A stretch of DNA of 64,000 nt from Draconibacterium aestuarii (lineage in GTDB: Bacteria > Bacteroidota > Bacteroidia > Bacteroidales > Prolixibacteraceae): positions 1 to 64,000 of the forward strand of contig JAPOHD010000024.1 of the NCBI GenBank assembly GCA_026671195.1, in the 5' to 3' direction. Positions 26,673 through 56,786 of the stretch are shown here, piece by piece. Within the stretch, counting starts at the first letter, position 1, and every line of letters starts with the position of its first letter. A model generated the notes under the pieces. The model saw nothing but the letters and a program-made list of their open reading frames with translations, was not told the origin of the DNA and made no database searches. The position numbers and the translations under genes are program-made.

Positions 26673-26865
26673 TCTAAAGATCAGCCCATTTATAATAAAG
26701 CCCAAACAGATACTTTCAAAATTCAAACAATTAAAAATGAACTTTAATTTGGTACAGGAAACCGGACTTTCAGTCTCCCCATAAAAACTAAAGATTAAAT
26801 TCTCTTCTTTTAGCAGCTTCAATCTTGTGAGTTTTAAAAAAGCGTCATACATTTGCCCCCGATAT

Positions 26866-26951
26866 GTATGCAATGGGGTGTCCGTCGGCTGATGGACTGA
26901 GATTATACTCAAAGAACCTGATCCGGTTAGTACCGGCGTAGGGAGAGCAAA
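26866..26951 (+). promoter_or_regulatory. TPP riboswitch (THI element)
   Basis: The conserved core is visible: GGGGTGTCC, CTGAGATTATACTCAAAGA, ACCTGATCCGGTTAGTACC, GGCGTAGGGAGAGCA. These are the CUGAGA and ACCUGAU..GG..A..CC..CGUAGGGA parts of the thiamine pyrophosphate aptamer, in the right order. It precedes the TonB receptor gene and so predicts thiamine control of that gene. Confidence 0.93.
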
Positions 26952-26970
26952 AAAGGATTCGTCCTACTCC

Positions 26971-26999
26971 ATTGGTTAATTTTTATAACCAATTTTCTC
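26971..26999 (+). terminator. Expression-platform hairpin of the TPP riboswitch
   Basis: ATTGGTTA (26971-26978) and TAACCAAT (26986-26993) form a perfect 8-bp stem with a 7-nt loop, followed by TTTTCTC and, 5 bp later, the start codon. In addition GTAGG in the aptamer can pair with CCTAC at about 26963-26967, a possible switch between the two states. Confidence 0.6.
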
Positions 27000-27004
27000 A
27001 AAAA

Positions 27005-29446
27005 ATGAAAAGACTTAATGTAGTACTGCTTTTACAATTAATAGCAGTTGTGGCTTTCGGGCAAATTAATTTAACAGGAGTTGTTAAAGGAAAAGGAGAA
27101 CCATTGGCCGGGGCCAGTGTAGTCATCGACAAAACATTTTATGGTGTGTCAGCATCGGGCGATGGTACTTTCGAATTTAAAAACCTCGATGAAGGAGATT
27201 ACAAATTAAAGGTTTCGTTTATCGGATTCGAAACCAAAGAACTTGAGGTGAGCCTGAAATCAAACAAAAAAATTGAAGTAAACCTCCAATCGGATGTGGT
27301 GATGACCGACGAGGTTCTGATTTCGGCTACTCGCGCTAAAAACAAAACGCCAATGGCGTACAGCAACCTTTCGGGCGACGAAATTGCACAGCGCAACATG
27401 GGACAAGACATTCCTTACCTGTTGCAACTTACACCTTCATTTGTAACCACTTCGGATGCAGGAGCCGGTGTAGGATACACCAATTTCCGCATTCGCGGAA
27501 CTGACCTGAATCGTATTAACGTGAGTTTGAACGGCATTCCGTTGAACGACGCCGAATCCCATGGGACCTGGTTTGTTGATCAGCCCGATATGGCTTCTTC
27601 GCTGGAAAATGTTCAGATTCAGCGTGGAGTGGGAACTTCAACCAACGGAGCAGCAGTTTTTGGGGCAAGCATCAACCTTCAAACCAATGCGTTACACAAA
27701 GAGGCTTACGGTGAACTTAGATCCGCTGCCGGAACTTTCCACACCCTTAAAAATACGCTTTCTGCAGGTACAGGTTTACTAAACGATCATTTTGCAGTTG
27801 ATGTGCGTATGTCGAAAGTTACATCCGATGGTTATATCGACCGTGCAAGTTCCGACCTAAAATCATTTTCTGTTTCGGGAGGATATTATTCGGAAAATAC
27901 AGTTATAAAAGTGAATATCATGTCGGGTCTGGAAGAAACTTACCAGGCCTGGTACGGTGTTCCATCAGTACGTTTAAACAATGATACGGAAGGTATGCAA
28001 CACTATGCCGACCATTGGCTAATGACACAGGATGAAGTTGATCATATGATGGCTTCTGACAGCCGTACATACAACTATTACACTTACGAAAATCAAGTTG
28101 ACCACTATCAACAGGATCATTACCATCTGCATTTTTCACACAAGGTAAATCCAAACTTAAATTTAAATGCTTCGGCACATTATACATACGGACGAGGCTA
28201 TTACGAGAACTACAAAGCGGATGAAAAGCTGGAAGACTACCTTATGGATCCAATCGAAATTGGCGGCGGAACCATTGAAACTACTGACCTGATTAACCGC
28301 AAATGGCTTGACAATGATTTTTACGGACTTACCTATTCGATGAACTATGCAAAAGACAAAAGTGATTTTACGTTTGGCGGTGGGTACAGCGTTTACGACG
28401 GCAACCACTTTGGCAATGTGATTTGGGCACAATACCTAGGAAATACCGACTTTAACCACGAATGGTACCGGGGCACCGGATTAAAAAAGGATTTTAATGT
28501 GTATGCCAAATACAACTACCAGGTGGCCGAAAAGTTAAATCTCTTTGCCGATTTGCAATACAGATACATCAACTATAAAATTGACGGGATAGATGATGAT
28601 TTACGCGATTTGACACAAGAGCACGACTTTAATTTCTTCAATCCAAAATTAGGTGTATTCTACCAGGCAGCCGACAACCAGGAATTATACCTGTCGTTTG
28701 CTGTAGCCAACCGCGAACCCAACCGCACAGCATTTGTCGACTACCCGGCCGGACAAAAGCCACCTGTGCACGAAACACTGCGCGACTGGGAGCTGGGATA
28801 TAATTACGCTTCTTCGAAATTCTCGTTCAGTGCAAATTATTATTATATGTGTTACACAGACCAACTGGTACTAACCGGCCAAATCAATGACGTGGGAGCA
28901 CCCATTATGGTGAATGTAGACAAAAGTTTCCGTACCGGACTGGAATTGCAGGCAGGTGTGCAACTTGCCAAAAACTTTCAGTGGAACGGTAACACCACAC
29001 TCAGCTTAAATAAAATAAAAAACTTTACAGAATATGTTGACGACTGGGACAATGGCGGACAGATAGCTAATGATTTAGGCACAACTGATCTGGCTTTCTC
29101 ACCCAATGTAATAGCAAACAGTATTTTTACTTATTCGCCCGATAAACATTTTAGCCTGTCGTTTCACTCGAATTACGTGGGCAAACAATACATCGACAAC
29201 ACATCGAACGACGATTGTTCCTTAAATGCCTATTTTGTAAACAATCTGAAAGCCGATTATACCATTACTTCAACTTTGTTTAAAGAAATTACGCTACATT
29301 TTATGGCCAACAATTTATTGAATCATACGTACGAATCGAATGCCTGGGTATATTCTTACATTTTGGGTGGCGAACGCTACAAAATGGATGGGTATTATCC
29401 GCAGGCCGGCGCACATTTTATGTTTGGAGTTGATTTTAAGTTTTAG
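27005..29446 (+). CDS. TonB-dependent outer-membrane receptor, thiamine-regulated
   Basis: About 813 residues. A signal peptide (MKRLNVVLLLQLIAVVAFGQ) is followed by a carboxypeptidase-like regulatory domain (INLTGVVKGKGEPLAGASVVIDKTFYGVSASGDGTFEF). The plug domain shows PYLLQLTPSFVTTSDAGAGVGYTNFRIRGTDLNRINVSLNGIPLND. A long barrel ends in aromatic GVDFKF. It imports a ligand across the outer membrane with TonB energy. The TPP riboswitch 5' of it indicates thiamine or a thiamine precursor as cargo, as in other Bacteroidota. ATG at 27005 is chosen because it begins the signal peptide; the frame upstream lies in the riboswitch leader. Confidence 0.94.
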   Translation: MKRLNVVLLLQLIAVVAFGQINLTGVVKGKGEPLAGASVVIDKTFYGVSASGDGTFEFKNLDEGDYKLKVSFIGFETKELEVSLKSNKKIEVNLQSDVVMTDEVLISATRAKNKTPMAYSNLSGDEIAQRNMGQDIPYLLQLTPSFVTTSDAGAGVGYTNFRIRGTDLNRINVSLNGIPLNDAESHGTWFVDQPDMASSLENVQIQRGVGTSTNGAAVFGASINLQTNALHKEAYGELRSAAGTFHTLKNTLSAGTGLLNDHFAVDVRMSKVTSDGYIDRASSDLKSFSVSGGYYSENTVIKVNIMSGLEETYQAWYGVPSVRLNNDTEGMQHYADHWLMTQDEVDHMMASDSRTYNYYTYENQVDHYQQDHYHLHFSHKVNPNLNLNASAHYTYGRGYYENYKADEKLEDYLMDPIEIGGGTIETTDLINRKWLDNDFYGLTYSMNYAKDKSDFTFGGGYSVYDGNHFGNVIWAQYLGNTDFNHEWYRGTGLKKDFNVYAKYNYQVAEKLNLFADLQYRYINYKIDGIDDDLRDLTQEHDFNFFNPKLGVFYQAADNQELYLSFAVANREPNRTAFVDYPAGQKPPVHETLRDWELGYNYASSKFSFSANYYYMCYTDQLVLTGQINDVGAPIMVNVDKSFRTGLELQAGVQLAKNFQWNGNTTLSLNKIKNFTEYVDDWDNGGQIANDLGTTDLAFSPNVIANSIFTYSPDKHFSLSFHSNYVGKQYIDNTSNDDCSLNAYFVNNLKADYTITSTLFKEITLHFMANNLLNHTYESNAWVYSYILGGERYKMDGYYPQAGAHFMFGVDFKF

Positions 29447-41270: not shown

Positions 41271-42023
41271 TCAATACATTTCGGGCTTTACATCAATAGA
41301 AAATTTATAACGATCCCCACGATAATATGATTTTTCAATCTCAACTACCTTGTCATCCGAACATAAAATAGCGCCATCCAAAATAAATACGGCCAATGGA
41401 ATCTCATTTTCAAAATAATTGTTTTTATCAGATGGAAACATTATCATATTGCTTAGTGAGCGCTGTACTTTTTCCAACTGTAAGCTGTACTCTTTATGGT
41501 ATATACCAATTAGAGGCTTTTCCAAATCGAGCATGTGTATTTTCGGACAAACCGTCATTGATATGTATTTTGTCTCATCCTTTAAAAGAACATCATTTCC
41601 ATAACGTAAACGGTGGATTTTCAGCACGGGTCCGTCAATGATCAAATGCCGGTTATTAATCTCGGAAGAAATTCCATTCTCCAGAATTACTTTTTCCAGA
41701 ATAATATTTTTGGGAGCAAAGCCTTCCCTGATTAAGTTATTGGTAAAACTTTCCTTAATCGCATTGAAGGACCCCAATACACGGGTGATGTGTTTATCAG
41801 CAGTTCGGTTAAGCACAAAAGTCCCCTTCCCTTTGATCCGGGCAGCCCATCCCTGTAATTCAATTTCGTGAAGGCTTTTACGAGCCGTGGTATTGCTAAT
41901 CCTGTAATTTTTTATCAGTTCATTTTCTGAAGGGATTTTATCACCTGGTTGCAAATCTCCCGATTCAATTCGCTTGATTATATCTTTGCTAATCGCAATA
42001 TATTTAGGAACCTGTACATTCAT
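41271..42023 (-). CDS. GntR family transcriptional regulator (UTRA type)
   Basis: A 250-residue protein with an N-terminal winged helix (YIAISKDIIKRIESGDLQPGDKIPSENELIKNYRISNTTARKSLHEIELQGWAARIKGKGTFV) and a C-terminal chorismate-lyase-like UTRA ligand domain (VLKIHRLRYGNDVLLKDETKYI...NYFENEIPLAVFILDGAILCSDDKVVEIEKSYYRGDRYKFSIDVKPE). HutC-subfamily repressors bind sugar or metabolite effectors. It is divergent from the MFS-isomerase-hydrolase operon across 102 bp. It is the probable repressor acting at the TACYTAGTGCGT sites. Confidence 0.92.
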   Translation of the reverse strand: MNVQVPKYIAISKDIIKRIESGDLQPGDKIPSENELIKNYRISNTTARKSLHEIELQGWAARIKGKGTFVLNRTADKHITRVLGSFNAIKESFTNNLIREGFAPKNIILEKVILENGISSEINNRHLIIDGPVLKIHRLRYGNDVLLKDETKYISMTVCPKIHMLDLEKPLIGIYHKEYSLQLEKVQRSLSNMIMFPSDKNNYFENEIPLAVFILDGAILCSDDKVVEIEKSYYRGDRYKFSIDVKPEMY

Positions 42024-42065
42024 ATGGCAAAATTAAATGAAACACCAAACATTATCAACAGATAC

Positions 42066-42120
42066 TTGCAAATTAATTTTTCTTACTTATATTTGCAATA
42101 AATCATACTTAGTGCGTTAA
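42066..42120 (+). promoter_or_regulatory. Promoter and downstream operator of the MFS operon
   Basis: TTG at 42066-42068 and TATATTTG at 42088-42095 (19-bp spacer) form a good Bacteroidota promoter. The element TACTTAGTGCGTTAA (42106-42120) lies just after the expected start point, where a bound repressor would block transcription. The same core recurs at 43417. Confidence 0.75.
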
Positions 42121-42125
42121 CTAAA

Positions 42126-43367
42126 ATGAAGAAGAACTTAACCTGGATACCCTGGGCAATTGTTGCGATGGCGTTCTTTGCAACTGCCTTAAGTTTTCTG
42201 GATCGCCAGGTACTCTCCATTTCGATTATAAAAATAAAGCAAGACTTTCACATTTCAGATATTGAATATGGCTTTATAAATACCGGTTTTTTAATCAGTT
42301 ATGCAATCATGTTTACGGTTGGAGGAATTTTAATCGATCGTTACGGGAGTCGCAGAGGACTGGCATTTTCGGTAGGAATCTGGTCATTTGCAACACTTCT
42401 ACACAGTCTGGCAAACAATACTGCGCAGTTTGGCCTGTTCAGATTTTTGCTTGGTGTGGGAGAAGGAGGTGCGTTCCCCGGAGCAATAAAAGCGGTTGTT
42501 GAATGGGTACCGAAAAACAGGCAGGCATTAGCAAACGGAATTGCCATTGGAGGTTCAGCAATCGGCGCGGTGGTTGCTCCCCCCTTGTGTGTTTACCTCA
42601 TTAACATTACCGGCTGGAGGGGTGTTTTTCTTGTGACCGGTGCATTTGGTCTTGTATGGGTTGTTGCATGGTTGCTTTTACCCAAAAAGAAAAAAACTGA
42701 TAACGTTCCCGACGAGCCCGACAAAGCACTTCCCCAAAAAGGATTCAACAAAGTAAAACTGATTGAGACTTTGAAAATAAAAGAAGTTTGGGTATTTATC
42801 ATCATTCGTTTTTTACTGGATCCCATTTTCTATTTTTATATGTTCTGGATCCCAAAATACTTAAACGAAGCGCGCCATATAGACATAGATCTCATCGGAA
42901 GCCTTTTCTGGATTCCTTTTCTTGCCCTGGGTGTCTCAAATATGTTTGGAGGTTTTGCTTCCGACTGGATGTTCCAAAAAACAGGAAACCTTAATTCATC
43001 AAGAAAAGTGATTATGGGAATTGCTGCCCTGCTTACAGCTCCGGCACTTTTTGTGAAAATTGCACCCAATGTTGAATGGGTAATCATTATTATTTCCATT
43101 GCCTTTTTTGCCCACGGTCTTTGGATAACAAACTATATTACTGCAATCAGTGACATGTTTGGTAACAGAATAACGTCAACTATTATTGGTTTCTCCGGGT
43201 CAGCAGGGGCTTTGTCGTCTTTGATTCTCAATCCCATAATTGGCCTGATTATTACAAAATTTTCATACAATCCTGTATGGATTTATGCAGGGGCAATGTA
43301 CTCTGTTGCATTTGTTGTATTCATCATTTTTATACCCAAAATAAAACCACTAAAAATTTCGGTATAA
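42126..43367 (+). CDS. MFS sugar/organic acid transporter (ACS family, ExuT-like)
   Basis: A 413-residue, 12-TM transporter. Seen: LSFLDRQVLSISIIKIKQDFHISDIEYGFINTGFLISYAIMFTVGGILIDRYGSRRGLAFSVGIWS and FRFLLGVGEGGAFPGAIKAVVEWVPKNRQALANGIAIGGSAIGAVVAPPL, the anion:cation symporter signature shared with hexuronate and galactonate carriers. It probably imports a monosaccharide or sugar acid by H+ symport through the inner membrane. First gene of the GntR-controlled operon. Confidence 0.92.
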   Translation: MKKNLTWIPWAIVAMAFFATALSFLDRQVLSISIIKIKQDFHISDIEYGFINTGFLISYAIMFTVGGILIDRYGSRRGLAFSVGIWSFATLLHSLANNTAQFGLFRFLLGVGEGGAFPGAIKAVVEWVPKNRQALANGIAIGGSAIGAVVAPPLCVYLINITGWRGVFLVTGAFGLVWVVAWLLLPKKKKTDNVPDEPDKALPQKGFNKVKLIETLKIKEVWVFIIIRFLLDPIFYFYMFWIPKYLNEARHIDIDLIGSLFWIPFLALGVSNMFGGFASDWMFQKTGNLNSSRKVIMGIAALLTAPALFVKIAPNVEWVIIIISIAFFAHGLWITNYITAISDMFGNRITSTIIGFSGSAGALSSLILNPIIGLIITKFSYNPVWIYAGAMYSVAFVVFIIFIPKIKPLKISV

Positions 43368-43416
43368 GTTGCAAGTAAAATCAACTTCCCGTTATAATAA
43401 AAGATATGACAAAATA

Positions 43417-43430
43417 TACCTAGTGCGTAA
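43417..43430 (+). promoter_or_regulatory. Second copy of the GntR-type operator
   Basis: TACCTAGTGCGTAA lies 19 bp before the isomerase start and shares the TACYTAGTGCGT core with 42106-42117. A TATAATAAAAG stretch at 43392-43402 may be its own promoter, so the isomerase could be separately controlled. Confidence 0.6.
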
Positions 43431-43449
43431 AGATTAAAAAATAAAATAT

Positions 43450-44928
43450 ATGAATAAAACGGACGTACAAGATATTCTTATGAATGCTAAAACATCCACT
43501 CCCAATGTTGGTGTATTTGGAGTTGGATACGATAAATATTGGGAGCAGTTCCCCGGCCTGCTGGATGAACTGATGCAGAAACATTCGACCATTATTGAAA
43601 AGATTCAGGTTCATGATGTTTCCACTACAGATTTCGGGATGGTTGACACCCCCCGAAAAGCCTATGAGACTGCTCAAAAGCTGGAAGCTGCGAATCTGGA
43701 CATCATTTTTTGCAACATGCTGACATACGCAACATCGGGAACGTTTGGGGTAATCATTAAAAATATAAATGTCCCCGTTGTATTGGTGGCTTTGCAACCT
43801 AGGAAAGCACTCGATTACAGCAAAGCTTCCACCTACATGCAACTGGCAAACGACGACATTTGCGCTTTGCCGGAGTTTGCAGGAGTAGCTGTTAGGATGG
43901 GAAAAAAAGTGCCGGACATGATTATCGGAACTTTGCACGATGATTCGGCTGTCGACAAGCAATTTGAAGAGTACTGTCTTATTTCACGCGTATTACATGA
44001 CTTAAAGAATGCGCATTTGGGGCATCTTGGCCATCCTATCAATGCGATGCTCGACATGCATACCGATGCAACGATGTTAACCTCTGCATTTGGCAGCCAC
44101 ATCGTTGAATGTGAAGCCAACGAACTCCATTCCTGCTACAACAAAGTTACAGAAGAAGAAATAAAATTATGTAAAGAACTGATACTTAACTTTTTTGACA
44201 CACCTGATCCGGTTTCTGATCCCATTTCAATGAAACTTCGGGATGAAGACCTCAGAATAGCAGCAAAAGTAAGTGTGGCTTTAACAAAATTTGTAGAAGA
44301 AAAACAACTCGACGGCCTTGCTTATTATTATGACGGCCCGGAAAACAGTGAAGAAAGAACTGTTCTTACCAACTTAATCGTGGGCAACTCACTTTTGACT
44401 TCGAAAGGTTTCCCGATGTGTGGAGAATCAGATTTAAAAACACTTATTGCTCTTCTGATTATGGACAGACTTGGAATTGGTGGAAGTTTTGCCGAGTTTC
44501 ACCCGGTAGACTTTAATGACGGTTTCGTGCTTGTCGGCCACGACGGCCCCCACAACATTGCCATTGCTGAAGGAAAACCCATTTTAAGAAGCCTGAAAAA
44601 ATACCATGGAAAACCTGGAAATGGTGCAGGTGTCGAATTTAAAATCAAAGAAGGCCCGATTACCATGCTTTCAATAAATTCAACATACGACGGGAAATTT
44701 AAATTTGTAATTGCAGAAGGAGAATCGGTTGCAGGACCTATTCCACCTACGGGGAATACCAATACCAGGGGATTTTTTAAACCCGACATTAAAACATTTT
44801 TAGACCGTTGGATGCGCGAAGGTCCGACTCATCATTTCTCGCTTGGTATCGGTCATATTGCATCAACCATACAAAAAGTAGCAAATTATTTAAATATTGA
44901 ATCCGTAATTATCAATTCTGAATCGTAA
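43450..44928 (+). CDS. L-fucose/L-arabinose isomerase-fold sugar isomerase
   Basis: A 492-residue protein of the fucose/arabinose isomerase superfamily. Seen: the N-terminal Rossmann-like start (NVGVFGVGYDKYWEQFPGLLDEL, ANLDIIFCNMLTYATSGTFG) and the central domain (LGHLGHPINAMLDMHTDATMLTSAFGSHIVECEANEL). The C-terminal part has FPMCGESDLKTLIALLIMDRLGIGGSFAEFHPVDFNDGFVLVGHDGPHNIA, which includes candidate metal ligands (Glu, His), and ends HHFSLGIGHIASTIQKVA. It interconverts an aldose and ketose; whether arabinose, fucose or rhamnose is used is not decided. A second, broken copy lies at 51834-53249 with about the same domain order. Confidence 0.85.
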   Translation: MNKTDVQDILMNAKTSTPNVGVFGVGYDKYWEQFPGLLDELMQKHSTIIEKIQVHDVSTTDFGMVDTPRKAYETAQKLEAANLDIIFCNMLTYATSGTFGVIIKNINVPVVLVALQPRKALDYSKASTYMQLANDDICALPEFAGVAVRMGKKVPDMIIGTLHDDSAVDKQFEEYCLISRVLHDLKNAHLGHLGHPINAMLDMHTDATMLTSAFGSHIVECEANELHSCYNKVTEEEIKLCKELILNFFDTPDPVSDPISMKLRDEDLRIAAKVSVALTKFVEEKQLDGLAYYYDGPENSEERTVLTNLIVGNSLLTSKGFPMCGESDLKTLIALLIMDRLGIGGSFAEFHPVDFNDGFVLVGHDGPHNIAIAEGKPILRSLKKYHGKPGNGAGVEFKIKEGPITMLSINSTYDGKFKFVIAEGESVAGPIPPTGNTNTRGFFKPDIKTFLDRWMREGPTHHFSLGIGHIASTIQKVANYLNIESVIINSES

Positions 44929-45021
44929 AGGTAATCGATTGATAAAAGGAATTATTAACTTTCAATTGTACTTTTTTTAGAACATATAACTTCAAATAAC
45001 CAAAGCATCTTGCAAAACACC

Positions 45022-48000
45022 ATGAAAAGAAAACCAAATAGAAAAGGATACTTCATTTTAAATATGGCGACTGCCATAGCATTTCTAATTGCCTATTTTT
45101 CAACAGGATGCTCAAATAAAAAGACAAAAGACAGGGTAAATTCACTGAAAGCCAACATCTCAGAAAGCGAATTCCTGTCTGCTCCCGAATCCGACAAACC
45201 ATGGGTTTATTATTGGTGGCTAAAAGGCAATGTAACCAAAGAACAGATTACGCATGATTTGGAAGAAATGCAGAAAAAGGGTATTGGAGGATTTTTGCTA
45301 TTCGATTCCCGAGGTTATTGGGATTCTTACGATGGCAGAACCGGGCACATTCCCGTTCCTCTTCAGATTAAATATGAATTTATGAATCCCGAATGGCGTG
45401 AGATGGTAAAATTCACGATGCAGGAAGCTAATCGCCTGGGATTAAAAATGAGCATCAACATGGCCAATACAGGGGGTTCTCTTCGTGGTCCCTGGGACAT
45501 GGAAGAAGACGGCCCTAAACAACTTATCTGGACATCATCAGACATTTCCGGACCTAAAACAATATCGGTGCAGCTGGAATCGCTGTCTGACCAAATGTAC
45601 TACCAGGACGTTGCCTTAATGGCCGTTAAAATAAAATCCGACAAAAAATCTGCAAAAAACAATGATTTGAACCAGGGCTGGGAAACCATGGTGATTCCCA
45701 ATGAAGATGCTCCGGTTGCAGGTGAAATCATCGATTTAAATAACCAAATCAGCAATGGAACATTACAATGGGACGTTCCGGAAGGAGAATGGAGAATTAT
45801 CCGTTTTGGATATCATGTTATTGGAGAAGAAGGCAGCGTTGATATTTTAAATCCCGCAGCTGTCACAAAATACTTTCATTTAATGGGATCTGAAATTTTG
45901 AAAGATGCCGGTGAGCTTGCCGGAAACACATTGACCCATTTTTACAATGTTAGCTGGGAAGGTGGTCAGCCCAACTGGACAGTCAATTTTGAAAATGAAT
46001 TCAGAAATTACCGCGGGTACGACATAAAGCAATACATGCCCATCTTAACAGGTATATCACTGAAAGAAAAATCATTAAACAAACGATTTATCCGTGACTA
46101 CATGAGAACGGTAAGCGACTGTTTCAGGCACAACTGTTACGAAACCATCGGGAAACTTTGTCATGATAACAACATAAAGTGGCACCCTGAAGATGGTGGA
46201 CCCTGGCCCCGCATAGCTCCCATGTTTAAAGAAGCCGACCAGTTGACTTTTTGGGGAAGCAACGACATGCCACAGGGCGAATTTTGGTGTTCCGGGTTGG
46301 AAGATCTTCAAACAAAATCGAACATGCGTTACGCAGCAATGGCCGGCCACATTCATGGACATCCTCTGATTGCGGTGGAAGCCTTTACGCACATGGGGCG
46401 GCACTGGACCAAATACCCGGCTTATTTGAAACCTTTTGCGGATATCAATCTAATTGATGGAGCTAACTTCTTTATCTGGCATACCTTCACTGCCTCACCC
46501 ATCGAAATTGGAAAACCCGGTTATGAATATTTTGCCGGCACGCATATTAACTCAAATATTACCTGGTGGAACAAAGCAGGAAGCATTATGGATTACCTTG
46601 GCCGGTCCCAGTATTTGCTGCGAAAAGGAAATTTTGTGTCTGATGTTTGTTGTTATGTAAGCGATAAAAACTATGTAAGATGGGGCCGCGGGGAGAAATG
46701 GAATCAAAATTCATCCCTAAATCCAGTGACCGGATACTCTTACGATCTCCTTGACTCAAAGGTCCTTCTTAATGATTTGTCTGTCAGAGATGGCAAACTT
46801 GTTCTCCCTGACGGAATGAGTTATAAACTGCTGGTAGTCGATCTTGAAGAACCTGTTATACCGGCTGATGTTTTGCAAAAAATAAAGGAGTTGACTGAAG
46901 AAGGTGCTACCATTGTTTTGGGGCAAACAAAACCATTAAATACACCGGGCATAAACAATTATCCGGAAAGTGATGAAAAAATCCGCATCCTGGCGGATGA
47001 ACTATGGACGAAAACTTCAGAACAAATGGCGATTCGTGAAGTCGGAAAAGGCAAAATATACACTGGTACAGACATGAAAGATATTTTAGCTGACAATCAA
47101 ATCCTTCCCGATTTTGAAGGCCCCTTCGAATACATCCACCGGGCCGATGAAAATCTTGACATTTATTTTATCTCCGGTGAAGGAAAAGTAAAATGTACGT
47201 TTCGCGTGAATGGGAAGAAACCGGAAATCTGGGATCCTGTAACGGGACAAACAATAGAAGCAATAAGTTATCATTCAACCAACGATGGAAGAACAAACGT
47301 ATCGCTTCAGCTTCCTGTAAACGGTTCTGTTTTTGTGGTATTCAGAGAAAAAGCAGAAGAAAATTACTTCATTTCTGTTGACGGACCGGGTTATCCTGAA
47401 GTAAAATCCAAAGAAGAAAATGTTTACGAATTGGTTTTATGGGAAAGTGGTGAATATTACTTAACCACCAATACTGGGAAAAAAGAGAAAATTTCAACAA
47501 CGGTTACTCCTTCCATAGAGATTACAGGAGACTGGAATGTTACATTTATTCCTGCTACGGAAGCAAAAGAGATTGAAACAACGTTTGATAAACTGACGCC
47601 TTGGAATAAAAACCCGGTCCCGGAAATTAAATATTTTTCAGGGACAGCAGACTACACAAATTCTTTCACTATAACAACAGAGCAGGCAGCAAGACCAGCC
47701 CGTCTTAATCTAGGTGAAGTACTCAACATTGCCAGGATTTGGGTAAACGGAAAAGATCTGGGAATTGTCTGGACAGCCCCCTGGTCGGTCGACATATCTG
47801 ACGCGATCAAAGAAGGGAATAATGAACTTAAAATTGAAGTCACCAATTGTTGGGCCAACCGTTTGATTGGCGACGCCGGATTACCGGAAAGTCAATGGAC
47901 AACCAGAACCAACGTCCGCCGTGTTCCGGATCGTTCGGAATACAAAGCTGGTCACCAGGCTTTTTCCGCTGAGGATGAACTGATGCCCTCGGGTTTGGTG

Positions 48001-48051
48001 GGGCCGGTTAAAATTGAATTTGGAAAGGAAGAATTGGTTACATTAGAATAA
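45022..48051 (+). CDS. GH106-like alpha-L-rhamnosidase, lipoprotein
   Basis: About 1009 residues. The N terminus has a hydrophobic segment ending YFSTGCSNKK, a lipobox, so it is probably anchored at the outer membrane. The barrel begins DKPWVYYWWLKGNVTKEQITHDLEEMQKKGIGGFLLFDSRG, the signature of GH106-type hydrolases, with WHPEDGGPWPRIAP and IAVEAFTHMGRHWTKYP carrying the likely catalytic acidic residues. A C-terminal galactose-binding-like domain (YFSGTADYTNSFTI...LNIARIWVNGKDLGIVWTAPWSVDISDAIKEGNNELKIEVTNCWANRLIGD) follows. ATG at 45022 is preferred to the upstream TTG. It removes terminal L-rhamnose from polysaccharide or oligosaccharides (family-level inference). Confidence 0.85.
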   Translation: MKRKPNRKGYFILNMATAIAFLIAYFSTGCSNKKTKDRVNSLKANISESEFLSAPESDKPWVYYWWLKGNVTKEQITHDLEEMQKKGIGGFLLFDSRGYWDSYDGRTGHIPVPLQIKYEFMNPEWREMVKFTMQEANRLGLKMSINMANTGGSLRGPWDMEEDGPKQLIWTSSDISGPKTISVQLESLSDQMYYQDVALMAVKIKSDKKSAKNNDLNQGWETMVIPNEDAPVAGEIIDLNNQISNGTLQWDVPEGEWRIIRFGYHVIGEEGSVDILNPAAVTKYFHLMGSEILKDAGELAGNTLTHFYNVSWEGGQPNWTVNFENEFRNYRGYDIKQYMPILTGISLKEKSLNKRFIRDYMRTVSDCFRHNCYETIGKLCHDNNIKWHPEDGGPWPRIAPMFKEADQLTFWGSNDMPQGEFWCSGLEDLQTKSNMRYAAMAGHIHGHPLIAVEAFTHMGRHWTKYPAYLKPFADINLIDGANFFIWHTFTASPIEIGKPGYEYFAGTHINSNITWWNKAGSIMDYLGRSQYLLRKGNFVSDVCCYVSDKNYVRWGRGEKWNQNSSLNPVTGYSYDLLDSKVLLNDLSVRDGKLVLPDGMSYKLLVVDLEEPVIPADVLQKIKELTEEGATIVLGQTKPLNTPGINNYPESDEKIRILADELWTKTSEQMAIREVGKGKIYTGTDMKDILADNQILPDFEGPFEYIHRADENLDIYFISGEGKVKCTFRVNGKKPEIWDPVTGQTIEAISYHSTNDGRTNVSLQLPVNGSVFVVFREKAEENYFISVDGPGYPEVKSKEENVYELVLWESGEYYLTTNTGKKEKISTTVTPSIEITGDWNVTFIPATEAKEIETTFDKLTPWNKNPVPEIKYFSGTADYTNSFTITTEQAARPARLNLGEVLNIARIWVNGKDLGIVWTAPWSVDISDAIKEGNNELKIEVTNCWANRLIGDAGLPESQWTTRTNVRRVPDRSEYKAGHQAFSAEDELMPSGLVGPVKIEFGKEELVTLE

Positions 48052-48225
48052 TCCTTTCTAATAATTTTATCCTGCTATGAAAAAACGAAAGTTATTAAAA
48101 AAAAAATTACTATTTAACTAGGGATCCGATTACGACAAGGTAATCAGCAAAAATGCCCATAAAAAAAAGACAATAAATAAATTCTGAAAAAACAGATTGA
48201 TAATTTTAAAACGATAACCTGAATT

Positions 48226-51213
48226 ATGAAAATATATTTTGCATCAATATTCGTTCTCTTCATTGTATTTTCCGGTGTGCCGGTAAAGGGTCAAAAAAGT
48301 GACGACTACCAGAGTGTTAAAAATAATTTTCTAAATCCACCGCAATCTGCCCGCCCAAAAGTATACTGGTGGTGTCTAAACGGAAACATTGATACAGTGC
48401 GAGCCAAACAGGAACTTCGTGCAATGAAAGATGCCGGGATCACTGGTTTTGATCTTTTTGAAATAGGTGTTCCTCCTTCAGATACCATGATTCCGGGAGG
48501 ACCGGCATTTATGAGCGACAAGTCTCTTCAGTTGATAAAATTTGCGGTTGATGAAGCCGGAAAACTGGGAATGACCGTTGGACTAAATCTGGCCAGCAGC
48601 TGGAATGCAGGAGGGAACTGGGTAAAACCTGAACACGGAGGAAAATCGCTGTATTCCTCAAAAGTCAATATAAAAGGAAACGCTCAATCGCAAAAAATTA
48701 AACTTCCTTTTCCTGAGGTTTCGTTTCCAGAAGAATCGTTAATTGGTGGAAATGGAGAAACACTAATCCCTTTTAGAAAGGATGGCCGGCCTGAATATTA
48801 TGAAGAAATAGCCGTCCTTGCCATTCCTGCGGAAATTGAAGAAGGCAGACTCGATACAACAGACATTATTGATATAACCCCATTTTTCGACCCAGAAACA
48901 GACGAACTTAACTGGAATGCTCCAGATGGTAACTGGGAAATATGCAGGTATGTTTGTTCCAATTCAGGCCAGCAGGTAGTTCGTCCCAGTCCGCTTTCAG
49001 CAGGATTAACCATCGATCATTTTGACTCAACAGCTGTGGAAACTCACTTGATGTATTTTATTAACCGGCTGCAGCCTGTTTTAGGAGACTTTCGAGAAAC
49101 AGCTTTACAAAGTTTATACCTTGCCAGTTATGAAGCCCGTGGTTTTGTATGGACTTCCACCCTGCCTGAAGAATTCAAAAAAGTTAACGGTTATAACATT
49201 CAAAAATTTATTCCGTCGTTTTTTAATCCCGAACTTTTCAAAGAGGAAACTGCTGAAAAAATTCAGACCGATTTCAAAAAAACCTTGTCGGAACTGATGA
49301 TTAACAATCTTTATAAAAAATCTCAGGAAATTTGTAACCGTTACGGATTAAAAATAAACAGTGAAGCTGGCGGTCCGGGATATCCGCTTTATAACGGTCC
49401 GGCTGAACCACTAAAAGCACAAGGTTCCATCGATATTCCTAGGGGCGAATTCTGGATAAATCATTCACGTTTTTATAAAGACGGGAACGACAGTATTGAT
49501 ATACTGCGAGTGGTTAAAGAAGCCGCAGCAGCATCTCATATTTATGAAAAAGGAATTGTGGAAGAAGAAGCTTTTACCTCGTTCATGCACTGGCAGGAAG
49601 GCCCCTTCGACATGAAACCTTTTGGTGACCGGGCCTTTTGTGAAGGAATGAACCGCGTTGTTTTTCATGGATTCAGCCACAATATCAGCAATTCGGGATT
49701 CCCGGGTTATGTGTATAATGCAGGCACCCATTTTAACGACAAACGAGCCTGGTGGCCCAATGTAAAACCTTTTACCGATTATGTTTCGCGGATTTCTGCT
49801 GTTTTTCAGGAAACGAATTTCAAAGCCGACGTAGTTTGGTATTATGGTGATAAAGTCCCTAATTCGGCAACCTCAAAAAACACCCATTTTAAAGTGGGGC
49901 CAGGTTACGATTATGAAGTAATTAATACCGAGATCCTGCTTGATAAACTTTCCGTAAAAAACGGAAAACTGATATTATCCAATGGCGCTGAATTTAGCTT
50001 GCTGGCTCTGGAAGATGAAGGAAATTTAAATTCAAATGTTCTAAAAAAACTGGATGAACTAGCAAAACAGGGAGCTGTAATAATTGGCGAAAAACCCGGG
50101 AAAGTTGACGGTGTTGTTGCCAAAAATGAAAACAAAATCTTGATTGATAATTTATGGGACAGTGCATCAGGCCTTTCTCAAAATAATTTATCTGAAAAGG
50201 GTAAAATATACTACGGAATTTCATCGCTCCAAATGTTGCATATATTGGGTATTCAACCCGATATTGATTATTCGGGAAGGAATTCTGATTTAATCGACTT
50301 TATTCATTTCAACAAAAATGAACTCGATTTTTATTTTATCAGAAATACACAAAATGAATGGCTTTCCAGAAACATTAATTTCAGGCAAAAAAACAAATCA
50401 CCTGAAATATGGGATCCGGTTTCAGGTAAAATTTTACCCGTGTACATTTATAACCAGGAAGGAGAATATGTAAATCTACCGCTAACCCTTCCTCCTTACG
50501 GAGCTTGTCTGGTTGTATTCCGGAAATCTTCTCTTCCACCTCAATTTACCGGAATTTCAGAAACAAATCCTCCACTTTTCGAATACACGACCAACGGCAT
50601 TAACTTTTTGCAGGAAGGATCTTTTATTCTGGAAGGTTCAAAACAATCACTTTCGGTCCAGAATAATATTGAAACAAATACGATAGACGGCCCTTGGGAT
50701 GTTGAGTTTACCAAAGGTTGGGGAGCGCCAGAAAAAACAACTTTTCCAGAGCTAATTTCCTGGACAGATTCTCCGAATGACGGGATAAAATATTATTCGG
50801 GAACAGCAACCTACAAAAAATCATTTCATTATGAAAAAAATAAAAAAACGGGAAATGAAAGCATTTATCTTGACTTGGGTGAAATATCAAAAGTAGCCGA
50901 TGTTTGGTTGAACGGGAAACACCTAGGGATTAGCTGGGCAAAACCTCATCGTTTTGATGTAACAAATAGCTTAAGCCAGGGTAAAAATACGATTACCGTT
51001 GAAGTTGCAAACGTTTGGTCGAACCGGTTGACAGGTGATGCAGTTACGGGACAAAAATTTACGAATACCAACATTAACACAACCATTGTACCGGCTGCTA
51101 CACTGGAAACGGGAGATCAAACACGCTACCCCTGGGCTGAAGTACCTCTTATTAAATCGGGACTGCTCGGACCTGTTACCATTCAAAGCATTTCTCCGGT
51201 GGCAATAAAATAA
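48226..51213 (+). CDS. GH106-like alpha-L-rhamnosidase, secreted
   Basis: A 995-residue paralogue of the preceding gene. Signal peptide MKIYFASIFVLFIVFSGVPVKGQ and no lipobox. Seen: RPKVYWWCLNGNIDTVRAKQELRAMKDAGITGFDLFEIG, KINSEAGGPGYPLYNGPAEP (GG-flanked Glu), EEEAFTSFMHWQEGPF, and a C-terminal carbohydrate-binding-like domain (YYSGTATYKKSFHY...KVADVWLNGKHLGISWAKPHRFDVTNSLSQGKNTITVEVANVWSNRLTGD). It differs from its neighbour in the catalytic surroundings, so a different linkage is likely. The 174-bp gap before it contains only a 14-codon ATG stretch and an A-rich tract. Confidence 0.84.
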   Translation: MKIYFASIFVLFIVFSGVPVKGQKSDDYQSVKNNFLNPPQSARPKVYWWCLNGNIDTVRAKQELRAMKDAGITGFDLFEIGVPPSDTMIPGGPAFMSDKSLQLIKFAVDEAGKLGMTVGLNLASSWNAGGNWVKPEHGGKSLYSSKVNIKGNAQSQKIKLPFPEVSFPEESLIGGNGETLIPFRKDGRPEYYEEIAVLAIPAEIEEGRLDTTDIIDITPFFDPETDELNWNAPDGNWEICRYVCSNSGQQVVRPSPLSAGLTIDHFDSTAVETHLMYFINRLQPVLGDFRETALQSLYLASYEARGFVWTSTLPEEFKKVNGYNIQKFIPSFFNPELFKEETAEKIQTDFKKTLSELMINNLYKKSQEICNRYGLKINSEAGGPGYPLYNGPAEPLKAQGSIDIPRGEFWINHSRFYKDGNDSIDILRVVKEAAAASHIYEKGIVEEEAFTSFMHWQEGPFDMKPFGDRAFCEGMNRVVFHGFSHNISNSGFPGYVYNAGTHFNDKRAWWPNVKPFTDYVSRISAVFQETNFKADVVWYYGDKVPNSATSKNTHFKVGPGYDYEVINTEILLDKLSVKNGKLILSNGAEFSLLALEDEGNLNSNVLKKLDELAKQGAVIIGEKPGKVDGVVAKNENKILIDNLWDSASGLSQNNLSEKGKIYYGISSLQMLHILGIQPDIDYSGRNSDLIDFIHFNKNELDFYFIRNTQNEWLSRNINFRQKNKSPEIWDPVSGKILPVYIYNQEGEYVNLPLTLPPYGACLVVFRKSSLPPQFTGISETNPPLFEYTTNGINFLQEGSFILEGSKQSLSVQNNIETNTIDGPWDVEFTKGWGAPEKTTFPELISWTDSPNDGIKYYSGTATYKKSFHYEKNKKTGNESIYLDLGEISKVADVWLNGKHLGISWAKPHRFDVTNSLSQGKNTITVEVANVWSNRLTGDAVTGQKFTNTNINTTIVPAATLETGDQTRYPWAEVPLIKSGLLGPVTIQSISPVAIK

Positions 51214-51228
51214 TGGGATGAAATACCC

Positions 51229-51576
51229 ATGACAAAGGATTTGACACAAACGAGAATGATTAATAACTTTGCAAAGTTCCAAGAGAACATGAAGGGCGAT
51301 CGTTACTGGAGGTTGAAATATCTTATGCTACGAGCATTCAGAAACCCCGAAGATGAAATTGCCTGCAATACAGCTAAGTACAAACGAATATTGCCAATTT
51401 CGGTTTCGACTGAGAGGGAGCATGCACATGAAACTTTCAATTTCTTAGCTGTTTTTTCTCCCCAAAGTTTTTCTCATTTACAATGGGTAAGGGTTTCTTT
51501 GGTCTCACGCAATGGTGTGAAGAATACTTCCCTTTCTTTGTCAAACAGTTGTGGACTTTTTAGTTTTAAAAATTAA
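51229..51576 (+). CDS. Doubtful short ORF
   Basis: 115 codons with no recognised domain: MTKDLTQTRMINNFAKFQENMKGDRYWRLKYLMLRAFRNPEDEIAC, then a Ser-rich, less protein-like half. It begins 15 bp after the hydrolase stop. The first half may be a remnant of a coding gene. It lies in a region of broken genes, so I would not rely on it being expressed. Confidence 0.25.
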   Translation: MTKDLTQTRMINNFAKFQENMKGDRYWRLKYLMLRAFRNPEDEIACNTAKYKRILPISVSTEREHAHETFNFLAVFSPQSFSHLQWVRVSLVSRNGVKNTSLSLSNSCGLFSFKN

Positions 51577-51580
51577 TCAC

Positions 51581-51734
51581 ATGAAACGATTTTCTATAAT
51601 TGCTTTGTTATTCTTTATTCAAAAGGATTAACACAAATTAAACCATGCGTATTTTCTCTGACAATATGGTTCTTCAGCGAGAAGTAAAAATCACTTCAGG
51701 GGAAGGTGGTTCCTTTCAGTACAACCACTCATGA
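51581..51734 (+). pseudogene. Truncated start of a sialate O-acetylesterase-like gene
   Basis: MKRFSIIALLFFIQK begins a signal peptide, then the frame breaks at a TAA. Shifting frame gives KGLTQIKP, and a second shift gives RIFSDNMVLQREVKI, the opening SDNMVLQ signature of sialate O-acetylesterases (SGNH esterases). The sequence ends at a TGA after GGSFQYNHS. So only about 50 codons of the original enzyme remain, with at least two frame breaks. Such esterases are common in polysaccharide utilisation loci, which fits the location. Confidence 0.6.
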
Positions 51735-51833: not shown

Positions 51834-53249
51834 TTATAACTTTAAACACTTAACACCAAGAACAAAGGCCAGTTTTTCAATTTTCTTTGCCTGATGACCG
51901 ATGCCGATAGCACAGTGATGGGCCGGACCAGCTTTTGACCACTGTTCGATGAAATTCTTTGCTCCCATTGAAAATTTGTACCGGCTGTTTGTATTTCCAA
52001 TTTTTAAAGTTGCCCCCGGGACAGATTCTCCCTCTGCAAGCAGGAGGAACACCTCATCCTTCCCTTCCACAACCGACAACAAAGTCACCGGTCCGTGTCT
52101 TACCGTCATTTGAATGGAAAGCCCTTTCCCCGGCTTCCCATGATAAACCGGCAAAGGAACCTGTTTTACCCTTCCTTCGGCGATGGCAAAGTGAGCTGGC
52201 CCATCGTGACCAAGTTATATAACATCGTCGTTAAAACCCATCAGATAAAGTTCAGAAAAAGACCCGCTGGCTCCCATTTCAGCCATTATTTTCATGGCAT
52301 GGGCATTTTTTACTTCGCACTCCCCTGCAACCGGAATATTTCTTCCTGTTAGCAATGTATTTCCTGCAATTACCGAGGTTACGATATTCTCGTATTCGTT
52401 TCCCGATTCACCTTCATAATAATATGCCAGAGAATTGAGGTTATGTTTTTGCACCAGGTCGTCAAGTGCTGCCGATGTGCTTGCCACACGTTCCAGTTCA
52501 GATGTTTCACATTCCGGAGCAACATCAAATGTATCTGAAAATTCTTTCAGTTTAACTTGTAGCTGCGTTGGAGTTACGGTATCACTAAGTGCTTTCAATT
52601 CACACATTTCCAGCATTTCGAAATGCGTTCCAAAGGTAGCGCTCTGGCGGGTAAGGTCGGTATACACATCGAGCATCCCCCCATAGTAATGTCCCAGAAT
52701 ACCCATCCGGTTTTTACGTAGTGATTTTGCTACGCGTGCTGCTTCTGTCCAGGCAGCTATTCCCTCCCAGGCAGTTTCATCGGAGAGATATCCGGAAACC
52801 ATGCCATAACCGATTCCTGAGCGATTAAAAACGCCGGCAATTTCAGGCACAGAACAGGCCTGGCAATGTTCCAACCAGACACCAGTCAGCTTTCCACTAT
52901 CCTCAAGATTATTGAATGAACTATAATCCAATTGAGGAACAGGCTGAAGATTGAGTATGATAATGGGTACTTCTACTGCTTGGGCTATAGGCAAAACCGT
53001 TGACGATAATGCCTATGTTGAAACATACAAAAATACAATTTCAATATTCTCTGATTTAAGGAAATCCGCGGCTAACTTGCCCTTAATAGAATTATCTATC
53101 ATTCCTGTGTCAACAACGTCTACATGAAAACCATTTATCTTCTCTCTAATTTGTTTCTGATAGTTTATCAAATTGTCATGTAAGCCTTCAAATTGAGACC
53201 ATTAGGTTTCAAGCCCAATTCCAAATAATCCAACTTTAGCAATATCCAT
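51834..53249 (-). pseudogene. Second sugar isomerase (fucose/arabinose isomerase fold) with three in-frame stops
   Basis: Reading from ATG at 53249, one single frame runs 471 codons to 51834 with no frameshift but three internal stops. These are TAA at 53204-53202 (codon 16, context GIGLET*WSQFEGL), TAG at 53015-53013 (codon 79, FLYVST*ALSSTV) and TAA at 52217-52215 (codon 345, [13 protein letters not shown]). The conserved parts are intact: [70 protein letters not shown]. The first two stops align with Tyr in the intact copy at 43450-44928 (DKYWEQF, NMLTYATSG). The third aligns with Leu there. It is either a recently inactivated isomerase or a gene needing readthrough. Confidence 0.85.
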
Positions 53250-53337: not shown

Positions 53338-53493
53338 TCAAAGTGGATAACTGAAATGGTAGTTTCCATATCCAAGTTCAAACTGTACTCCATCTTCAAC
53401 TTGTTGATAAATTTCAAGCAAAACAACTGTTTCAATGTGATTTAGTCATGCAATTGGAAGAGCAATCGTTGCAGTTGTATTGCAGGAATTCAT
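53338..53493 (-). pseudogene. Remnant of a GH78 C terminus
   Basis: On the minus strand NTTATIALPIA, a TGA stop (53448-53446), then LNHIETVVLLEIYQQVEDGVQ and FELGYGNYHFSYPL. This matches the final strand pattern of GH78 rhamnosidases in this window (NSSATIALPLSGFNDVVVYEG...LMIKTGSGNYRF). No upstream part of the enzyme is found; 53494-53645 holds nothing recognisable. The piece is a leftover of a deleted or rearranged rhamnosidase gene. Confidence 0.6.
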
Positions 53494-53645: not shown

Positions 53646-56600
53646 TCACTTATAATAAATTTTGAAGTCCTGAGTCAATCCATAATCCATTAATTGATAA
53701 TCATTACCAGCAGGTAATTTTTGGGGTCCGATAAACCAGCTCCAAGGACTTGCAATTCCTTTAGTTACATTTCCATGGTGAGGCCCCAGTAAGTTTTTCA
53801 ATGAACCAACAACTTCAACAGTAACTTCTTGATTTCCGGGCTCAAGAAACTCTGTTAGATCGAATTCGTGCGGCAGCCAACCAATAATTCCTACCTGTTC
53901 GTTATTTACAAGAATTCTTGCAACAGTTCCGTTCCATTCATTCAATTCAATTTTATATTGATTTCCTTTTTTAACATCCAAATTTTTAGTGTACTTCACG
54001 CTTTGACTATAAAAAGGCCTTCCTTGTTTTTTCCACGAGCCAATTTTTAGCGGTTGTTCCTCTTTCATAAGAAACCCTGCGTCCTGTGGCTCCAATGCAA
54101 AATTACCAATCAAATAAACTGGTTCAATTTCAGCGTAAATACTCATTGGATTAATAGTTAAGGTTAATTCATTATTTCCCGGTTTAACCTTATTCCCAAT
54201 ATCAAATACATTAAAAGAACGATCGAGCCAACTTTCTCCGGGGATTGGTTTGATATTTACACCATTTACCGACACTTGGTATAGATGCGCCCATTCAACA
54301 ACTGCCCTTAATTCATCAGGTTGAAATCCCTGAGAAATTTTAAAATTATATGTAACCGTAAAACCACTGTCATTAGTAAAATTTTCTCCCATATCAATGA
54401 TATTGGTTCGGTATTGTACTCCTGCTGACCATGGATTATAGCCAGTGCGTCCGTATTGCTCCAGCCCATTCAATTTAAAGGCCGAGTCGGATGCAGCAGT
54501 GAAATAAATATTTTCGAATGTCTTATCCTGTACTTTTAAATCAACATGGTCAATAGTAAAGCTGTTAGGAGCAGTTGCGGAAGGCTGCGAATATTCAGTA
54601 TTCAGCATTTTCCAACCATCGGTGATTTCTGCAGATTTTATTACCTGTTGTTCTATTTTTTCATTATGTATAAAAAGTAACTTACTCCCTTCGGCAGACA
54701 GTTGAAATCTAAACTGAACCATATCTTCATTGGTTGAAACAGGATATCCTGTAATTTCGCCTGAAACAGGATCAAGTAATGAAACGGCTTTTCCTTTTGC
54801 TTTAAACTGAATTTCTTCCGAACCTTCTTTATTGAAGTTTGACCAGAAAATAAGTTGTCCATCTTCAAATTGTCTTCTCATATGAAACACTTTACCATTA
54901 ATGGATAAAGGATTTTCTACTGAGAAGTCCGATTGCTGTAATTTAGAAACTACATCAGGCTGTTGAATGTTGTCAATATTGATCCAGTTGGAATGACTTC
55001 CGGCTAAATTTTTCACTTCATTTGAAGGTTCTCCATTTATAAATTCAGGTATAGCAAAACTATACACCATACCCCCATTTTCAACAAACTTCTTCAATAA
55101 CTTCCAGGTTGTATCATCAATATTTTTAAAATATGGCGGTAAAATAACTTGATCATAATCGCGCAATCCAACAGAAAACTTTGCCCCATTAATTGATCCT
55201 TGATTTTTGATGATATTTTCAGCACCCAAATCATATTCAAGCTGTAATTTTTCCATGTCATCAATGAGTTCTCTGAAACTATTCTTGATATTTTCAATGT
55301 TTTCATTTCTCACTAGTGGAGAATAATACATCCAAGCTGTTGTTGTGGGTTCAATAATCAGGGTGTTATTAATTTGCTGGCCCTGACTTAAAACAAAAGA
55401 TAAACGTGCAAAATATTTGGCAAGTATTCCATAATCATTCCAATAGGGAGCATGAGAAAGAAAAGATTGGGGATAATCACCTTTTCGCCGACCTTTCAAA
55501 GTCATATGAGCAAGGTGCTGATTCATGAAATTTACTCCTAATGTATACTCCCAATCGCCTAATCGCTTCATATCGCCAAAAGTCAATTCCCAGCCAGCCC
55601 CACCATATGTTTCTGAAAGAGCCCTTTTACGTCCCATCTGATTGGCAACGGAACTCATTTCCTTTACTGCCCGAACGTTTCCAAATTGATCAGGACGTTT
55701 TTCATAGGTATTGAACAGCATATCAATCCCGGGCATTTGATGCCACTCATACATAGCCATATTATCTCCGCCATGATGAGGGCTTGGCCATCCGTGTTCC
55801 CAGTAATGACCTGTCCATGCGAGATTTTTACTTTCGGTGTAATCATACCAGGGTTTCGCCCAGCGTTCGATAAACATTTCAAGTAACAACCGGTAATAGT
55901 TATATCTTACTTTTTTAAAATCACCAACTTCAGCAAATAGTGCAGGTAAATGTTGATTCAAATCATATCCCCACCTTTGCTGAAAAGCTTCAAACAAACT
56001 GGGCGTGAACCTTATACCGCCGCGTCCTGCACGCGGAGCTATGTTAGGTTCATCTGTAAAAACACCAGGAACAGACTTGCTAAATTCTCCTCCTAAGGCT
56101 TTTTCATATCCCGTCATAGTAAGTTCAATAAATTTCTCAGTGACTCCGGGAATTAATAAATCAACATATGGAAAACCACCTTGCCAACCACTGCCTCTTT
56201 CATTTAATATTTCGAAGGCAAAATAATCATCAATCCACTTTTGCGGCCACTCTTTCACTTTCTCAAACCCGTTGCCTGCTTTTTTTAGCACTAAAAAATA
56301 ATCATCCCTTTTTTCAGGATCAACTTGGTCTCCCTTTCTCATTACAATTGCATTTCCCTGATTATAGGATTCCGGCATTTCCGCCTGAACATGTCCACCT
56401 GCAAATCCGCTTGGATATGAATTTTCATCATATATCCAAACATTCATGCCCAATTCCTCGGCTTTCTCCAATGTGTAACCTGATAATTCAAACCATTCTT
56501 CGGACAAATACTCTGTAATAAGTCCTGGCCGAGGATGAATAAATACCTGCAGGATATTTTCATTTTTAAATTCCTGCAACTGAGTTGCAATTTTTTCTTT

Positions 56601-56786
56601 GGTAACTAAATCGTTCCAAACCCACAATGGTGATGTACTGTAATCCTTTGAGGGATTTTTAAAGGCTTCCGAAACATCTTTAAAAGTTTGCTCACTTATT
56701 TGATTCTTTTGAACGTACTGACATTGAGCAGAAATAGCTCCTCCCAGTAAAAACACTAAGCATGTAAAAATCTTTATCCGTATCAT
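53646..56786 (-). CDS. Large secreted glycoside hydrolase, GH106-related
   Basis: A 1046-residue protein with signal peptide MIRIKIFTCLVFLLGGAISAQCQ. The TIM-barrel part opens SPLWVWNDLVTKEKIATQLQEFKNENILQVFIHPRPGLITEYLSEEW and includes NVWIYDENSYPSGFAGGHVQ, PGVFTDEPNIAPRAGRGGIRF, WTGHYWEHGWPSPHHGGDN and RALSETYGGAGWELTFGDMKRLGDWEYTLGVNFMNQHLAHMTL. C-terminal beta domains (HLYQVSVNGVNIKPIPGE, NGTVARILVNNEQVGIIGWLPHEFDLTEFLEPGNQEVTVEVVG) resemble galactose-binding folds of GH2/GH106 proteins. The exact family is not assigned. It is last in the GH78 operon (103-bp gap). Confidence 0.75.
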   Translation of the reverse strand: MIRIKIFTCLVFLLGGAISAQCQYVQKNQISEQTFKDVSEAFKNPSKDYSTSPLWVWNDLVTKEKIATQLQEFKNENILQVFIHPRPGLITEYLSEEWFELSGYTLEKAEELGMNVWIYDENSYPSGFAGGHVQAEMPESYNQGNAIVMRKGDQVDPEKRDDYFLVLKKAGNGFEKVKEWPQKWIDDYFAFEILNERGSGWQGGFPYVDLLIPGVTEKFIELTMTGYEKALGGEFSKSVPGVFTDEPNIAPRAGRGGIRFTPSLFEAFQQRWGYDLNQHLPALFAEVGDFKKVRYNYYRLLLEMFIERWAKPWYDYTESKNLAWTGHYWEHGWPSPHHGGDNMAMYEWHQMPGIDMLFNTYEKRPDQFGNVRAVKEMSSVANQMGRKRALSETYGGAGWELTFGDMKRLGDWEYTLGVNFMNQHLAHMTLKGRRKGDYPQSFLSHAPYWNDYGILAKYFARLSFVLSQGQQINNTLIIEPTTTAWMYYSPLVRNENIENIKNSFRELIDDMEKLQLEYDLGAENIIKNQGSINGAKFSVGLRDYDQVILPPYFKNIDDTTWKLLKKFVENGGMVYSFAIPEFINGEPSNEVKNLAGSHSNWINIDNIQQPDVVSKLQQSDFSVENPLSINGKVFHMRRQFEDGQLIFWSNFNKEGSEEIQFKAKGKAVSLLDPVSGEITGYPVSTNEDMVQFRFQLSAEGSKLLFIHNEKIEQQVIKSAEITDGWKMLNTEYSQPSATAPNSFTIDHVDLKVQDKTFENIYFTAASDSAFKLNGLEQYGRTGYNPWSAGVQYRTNIIDMGENFTNDSGFTVTYNFKISQGFQPDELRAVVEWAHLYQVSVNGVNIKPIPGESWLDRSFNVFDIGNKVKPGNNELTLTINPMSIYAEIEPVYLIGNFALEPQDAGFLMKEEQPLKIGSWKKQGRPFYSQSVKYTKNLDVKKGNQYKIELNEWNGTVARILVNNEQVGIIGWLPHEFDLTEFLEPGNQEVTVEVVGSLKNLLGPHHGNVTKGIASPWSWFIGPQKLPAGNDYQLMDYGLTQDFKIYYK

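Follow-up and report, generated by a model that had tools for sequence, protein, structure and literature searches.

Could a bacterial gene that carries three in-frame stop codons still be a working gene? This question is raised by an isomerase-like frame of Draconibacterium aestuarii that lies in the window, that is, in the whole stretch of 64,000 nucleotides analysed here. On the minus strand of 51834-53249, translation gives a single frame of 471 codons followed by a terminal TAA, free of frameshifts and interrupted at codons 16, 79 and 345 and nowhere else, just as the initial annotation had described it. Point inactivation, sequencing error and readthrough or suppression of the stops were all considered there. 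From a comparison with close orthologues, with the substitutions of the sister lineage and with the neighbouring genes, we conclude that the frame is very probably an ordinary, dispensable young pseudogene. The frame and its stops are as follows.

51834..53249, minus strand: isomerase pseudogene, L-arabinose/L-fucose-isomerase-like, with three in-frame stops (translation and homologue alignment)
53202..53204, minus strand: codon 16, TAA; every one of the 92 further sequences in the alignment described below has Tyr here
53013..53015, minus strand: codon 79, TAG; again Tyr in every one of these 92 sequences
52215..52217, minus strand: codon 345, TAA; Tyr in L008 and L009, the nearest orthologues; among the further 92 sequences, Met 44, Tyr 23, Leu 11, Phe 10 and Ile 4

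The broken frame, with X at the stops, was searched against 61 genomes, its own included, and 20 of them gave a match. Internal stops occur only in the broken frame among the matches listed from this search. The nearest orthologues, in genomes G031 and G010, are 80% identical and stop-free. In D. aestuarii itself, intact paralogues occur at 71% (C66) and 70% (C4) identity, both closer to the broken frame than the paralogue in the window.

43450..44928, plus strand: intact isomerase paralogue in the window, 38% identical to the pseudogene

Opposite the three stops, this window paralogue has Tyr, Tyr and Leu, as had been stated, but it is only 38% identical. When the frame is aligned to its close homologues, as had been proposed, L008 and L009 (80% identical) turn out to have Tyr at all three positions, not two, and all three stops are third-position differences in Tyr codons.

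For a broader sample, a wider contig search found 134 stretches encoding a relative, 80 of which were kept. The resulting alignment has 95 rows (the broken frame, L008, L009 and 92 others), drawn from 75 of the 80 contig-search loci and from 19 loci of the 61-genome search, with minus-strand loci turned; L038 (the same gene as L009), L082, L091, L101 and L114 were left out, and some genes are represented by two rows, such as L010/L058, L012/L077 and L013/L078. Wherever a column is filled by a majority of those 92 rows, the broken frame is filled too, without internal gaps. G058 contains, besides its first isomerase relative, another one that was recovered in two short pieces on one contig (L032 and L036, 61% and 45% identity; G058:C53:17441-18139), perhaps a further broken or truncated copy. 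Among the papers listed for Maribellus, to which the bacterium is related, none concerns this isomerase gene as judged by title or the start of the abstract, and no paper was found on pseudogenes formed by nonsense mutation in polysaccharide utilization loci of Bacteroidetes.

Then, how surprising is it that all three stops fall on Tyr? One-step nonsense mutations were enumerated on L008, L009, L039 and the broken frame under three mutation models. Tyr codons account for 12-17% of them, and for a single stop the argument from an unusual TAY-to-TAR route is thus weak. The joint coincidence is the stronger argument, and it had been missed: under random nonsense mutation, the probability that three of three stops fall on Tyr is 0.003-0.005 starting from L008, L009 or L039, and 0.002-0.003 starting from the broken frame. 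For any one amino acid, the corresponding probability is about 0.017 (a hand sum of cubes on the L008 fractions). It had also been remarked that TGA is not used, which is true of the three stops and yet uninformative, with a probability of 0.42-0.55. The three Tyr hits are therefore odd without being compelling, a mild numerical oddity that counts against a plain pseudogene and that, if the frame is one, would be coincidence.

The rest of the frame was compared with its intact sister, the stem common to L008 and L009, with changes polarised by residue frequency in the 92 other rows; ties and sites differing between L008 and L009 were dropped, and the sister count covers the shared stem only. 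The broken lineage shows 49 residue changes and the sister lineage 34. Residues never seen in the 92 rows make up 17 of the 49 changes on the broken lineage but a single one of the 34 on the sister (Fisher, p = 0.0004), and changes at sites conserved to at least 90% make up 13 of 49 versus 3 of 34 (Fisher, p = 0.052). At fully invariant columns, the sister has no change and the broken lineage four, which are listed here with the residue that L008, L009 and the 92 rows all share.

52485..52487, minus strand: codon 255, A255V; shared residue Ala
52266..52268, minus strand: codon 328, G328S; shared residue Gly
52236..52238, minus strand: codon 338, D338G; shared residue Asp, which the window paralogue has as well
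52161..52163, minus strand: codon 363, L363Q; shared residue Leu

A count over 50 rows of unique residues at otherwise invariant columns gives 4 for the broken frame and 0-2 for most rows, with four intact rows at or above its value (L023 17, L015 5, L095 5, L104 4). By the never-seen residues, constraint on the remaining sequence appears to be relaxed.

Could the decay also be read from dN/dS? A codon branch model was fitted to 14 sequences, the optimiser being stopped after 15-25 iterations. Omega on the broken branch is 0.21 against a background of 0.064, and both equality with the background (2 delta lnL 20.6) and omega = 1 (2 delta lnL 10.6) are rejected. However, omega on the intact sister stem is 0.216 (2 delta lnL 11.5), and therefore the branch test cannot separate broken from intact and was dropped as evidence of decay. 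The 11 other terminal branches range from 0.02 to 0.13, but they are longer and probably saturated. Counts of changes by codon position are likewise similar in the two lineages (25/20/63 on the broken, 25/15/52 on the sister). Most of the broken branch would thus have passed under selection, and the inactivation would be young. With an excess of about 16 changes, some 20-40 mutations may have accumulated in a neutral phase, in which three or more stops would arise with a probability of 0.05-0.23, and the lack of any indel in 1.4 kb has a probability of 0.02-0.37 if 0.05-0.1 indels per substitution are assumed.

By fold and by C-terminal domain, the intact form is predicted to belong to the L-arabinose/L-fucose isomerase superfamily. 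The predicted model of the intact orthologue (mean pLDDT 86) matches L-arabinose isomerases in Foldseek, with a best E of 3e-31 and a TM of about 0.8 at 14-17% identity, and resembles fucose isomerases less well. Orthologue L008 scores 36.9 bits against PF11762, whose cut-off is 25, and the broken frame with X at the stops still scores 26.9 bits; L008 reaches 56 bits against the NCBIfam AraA equivalog NF002795, short of its cut-off of 622 bits. The likeness to the known enzymes (AraA, PDB 4f2d, 2ajt and 4r1o; L-fucose isomerase, 1fui) therefore lies in the predicted fold, through the AraA match, and in the C-terminal AraA domain, while the orthologue is far under the equivalog cut-off and the copy studied here is broken. 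Glu306, Glu333, His350 and His450 of Escherichia coli AraA, which we take to be its metal-site residues, align with Glu310, Glu333, His348 and the His444/445 pair, all of which are kept in the broken frame. The conserved active-site segments reported earlier hold to that extent, whereas four residues invariant in the 92 rows are changed. A reading of D338G as the loss of a metal ligand was rejected, since D338 stands opposite His338 of AraA and not opposite any of the four residues above.

Rhamnosidase genes of the GH106 and GH78 types surround the broken frame, together with genes for an MFS transporter and a GntR regulator. The features that bear on its history are listed below.

48226..51213, plus strand: GH106 gene, uninterrupted; its orthologues in G031 and G010 are 85% identical
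51214..51580, plus strand: extra DNA of about 370 bases that separates the GH106 gene from the esterase remnant, unmatched at this place in G031 and G010
51581..51700, plus strand: esterase remnant, 5' end, sialate-O-acetylesterase-like (DNA match to the G031 and G010 copies)
53353..53481, minus strand: probable GH78 alpha-L-rhamnosidase remnant, C-terminal end (weak local matches)
53646..56786, minus strand: GH106-type gene, uninterrupted, upstream of the pseudogene (frame and domain search)

The GH106 gene at 48226-51213 has orthologues in G031 and G010, each of which is followed directly by an open frame that codes for about 650 aa and includes a SASA esterase domain. Here, about 120 bases of that esterase gene are left, with gaps of 13 bases and 1 base relative to the intact copies and a frameshift, and beyond them no further match to the G031 and G010 copies was found. 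The identity of this remnant is based on the DNA match and not on the peptide score, because as a peptide it is barely above its shuffles (50 versus 37-49). Within the extra DNA, 51288-51396 and 51418-51449 match G018 DNA that lies past an IS110-family transposase frame, at a distance of about 280 bases (77% over 109 bases); short matches to 51214-51580 also occur in G019, G021 and G023.

On the other side of the isomerase, 53353-53481 is probably a GH78 remnant, as judged from sequence comparison. Its best local score against GH78 proteins is 58, compared with 41-53 in 20 shuffles, while the next scores (at most 51) fall within the shuffle range; the five best local matches all align at GH78 C-termini. 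Matches by blastx to GH78 are weak (E 1.1 to 7.4), and a 26-base match (88%, E 0.003) lies in the last 200 bases of a GH78 gene of G031. As DNA against 37 genomes of the genus, the segment matches, apart from itself, 37 bases in G008. Neither of the two short remnants has a match in Pfam or NCBIfam.

The positions of these genes in the relatives are also informative. In G031 and G010, a GH78 gene stands directly before the isomerase, and in G031 the isomerase (1.797 Mb) and the GH106 gene (0.688 Mb) are about 1.1 Mb apart on one contig; in D. aestuarii, the isomerase and the GH106 cluster are adjacent. Point inactivation, one of the explanations first offered, is supported both by the missense excess over the intact sister and by the gene remnants alongside.

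Two further observations concern the window at large. The cluster at 41271-51213 comprises a GntR regulator, an MFS transporter, the isomerase paralogue and two GH106 genes, and relatives of the window paralogue and of the GH106 genes are also found near each other in G031 and G010. In addition, a TPP riboswitch aptamer (26864-26961, plus strand, 66.4 bits) lies directly 5' of an 824-aa frame at 26972-29446, outer-membrane-receptor-like by eye, which suggests a thiamine-related uptake gene.

Could the gene instead be intact, and the three stops be wrong base calls or errors of assembly? The assembly is a draft of 69 contigs (6.37 Mb), the frame is free of indels, and each of the three stops differs from a Tyr codon at the third position. 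However, such errors leave unexplained the 17 never-seen residues among 49 changes, as well as the esterase remnant and the probable GH78 scrap. In 131,240 bases of the organism's own DNA, we found 15 same-frame splits of long frames, by criteria that overlook any stop close to the end of a gene, as codon 16 is; two of the splits are in the broken frame, and by eye the 13 others are gene junctions or antisense frames, and no other frame with such stops was thus judged present in this part of the genome. We regard sequencing or assembly error as very improbable.

Suppression or readthrough, by which TAA and TAG would be read as Tyr and the frame would still be a working gene, is more improbable still. 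In its favour are the three Tyr stops, two of them at columns where each of the 92 remaining rows has Tyr, the absence of a frameshift, the retention of the AraA-aligned residues, and an omega on the broken branch no higher than that of the intact sister. From 418 first-look candidates, 150 were scored with a covariance model, which yielded 43 tRNAs, and ARAGORN was run on the 42 loci holding these 43. No TTA, CTA or TCA anticodon occurs among the 43 tRNAs, in answer to the suggestion that a tRNA with anticodon TTA or CTA be sought, and the single tRNA-Tyr has GTA. An RF1-like and an RF2-like protein with the GGQ motif are present in the genome together with an ArfB-like protein, the RF1 and RF2 assignments being based on sequence motifs. 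Other genes with internal TAA or TAG, which had likewise been proposed as a check, were not judged by eye to occur in the 131 kb of 6.37 Mb, and the four changed invariant residues and the gene remnants that adjoin the frame also argue against a working gene. The suppression option thus stands unsupported. It shares with natural nonsense suppression and stop-codon reassignment the in-frame TAA and TAG at Tyr positions, and departs from them in the lack of a suppressor anticodon among the tRNAs found, in the release factors kept and in the lack of a second case judged genuine in the 131 kb covered.

A milder form of the same idea supposes that, under some condition, the ordinary tRNA-Tyr(GUA) inserts Tyr at UAA and UAG frequently enough for TAY-to-TAR changes to be tolerated, so that the stops of low-demand genes favour Tyr. 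The main sign for it is that all three stops are on Tyr, and the unremarkable dN/dS is compatible with it; we give it a very slim chance. Nor is it at all likely that the 265 residues open between stops 79 and 345, which do contain start codons, are translated as a useful piece, since a 259-aa frame there has no Pfam match at E up to 0.001, the AraA-like fold predicted for the intact orthologue takes in residues from either side of the stops, and A255V, G328S and D338G fall within the open stretch.

The reading as a young pseudogene places the frame beside known bacterial nonsense pseudogenes, which it resembles in its premature stops, in the intact orthologues of sister species, in the intact paralogues, in the adjacent remnants and in the excess of changes at conserved sites. 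Unlike them, it lacks a frameshift and has all three stops on Tyr codons. The order of events is inferred as follows, while either arrangement of the two rhamnosidase clusters, apart or adjacent, may be the ancestral one. At the junction of the two clusters, the esterase gene, and probably the GH78 gene too, would have been reduced to fragments. The isomerase between these fragments would then have gathered nonsense and missense substitutions, and its redundancy with the two closer paralogues (71% and 70%) may be the reason for its loss.

The locus therefore shows gene remnants where two rhamnosidase clusters, which are apart in G031, adjoin. It also serves as a worked control, in which a long stop-bearing frame without a frameshift, although it may look like recoding, turns out to be a probable young pseudogene.
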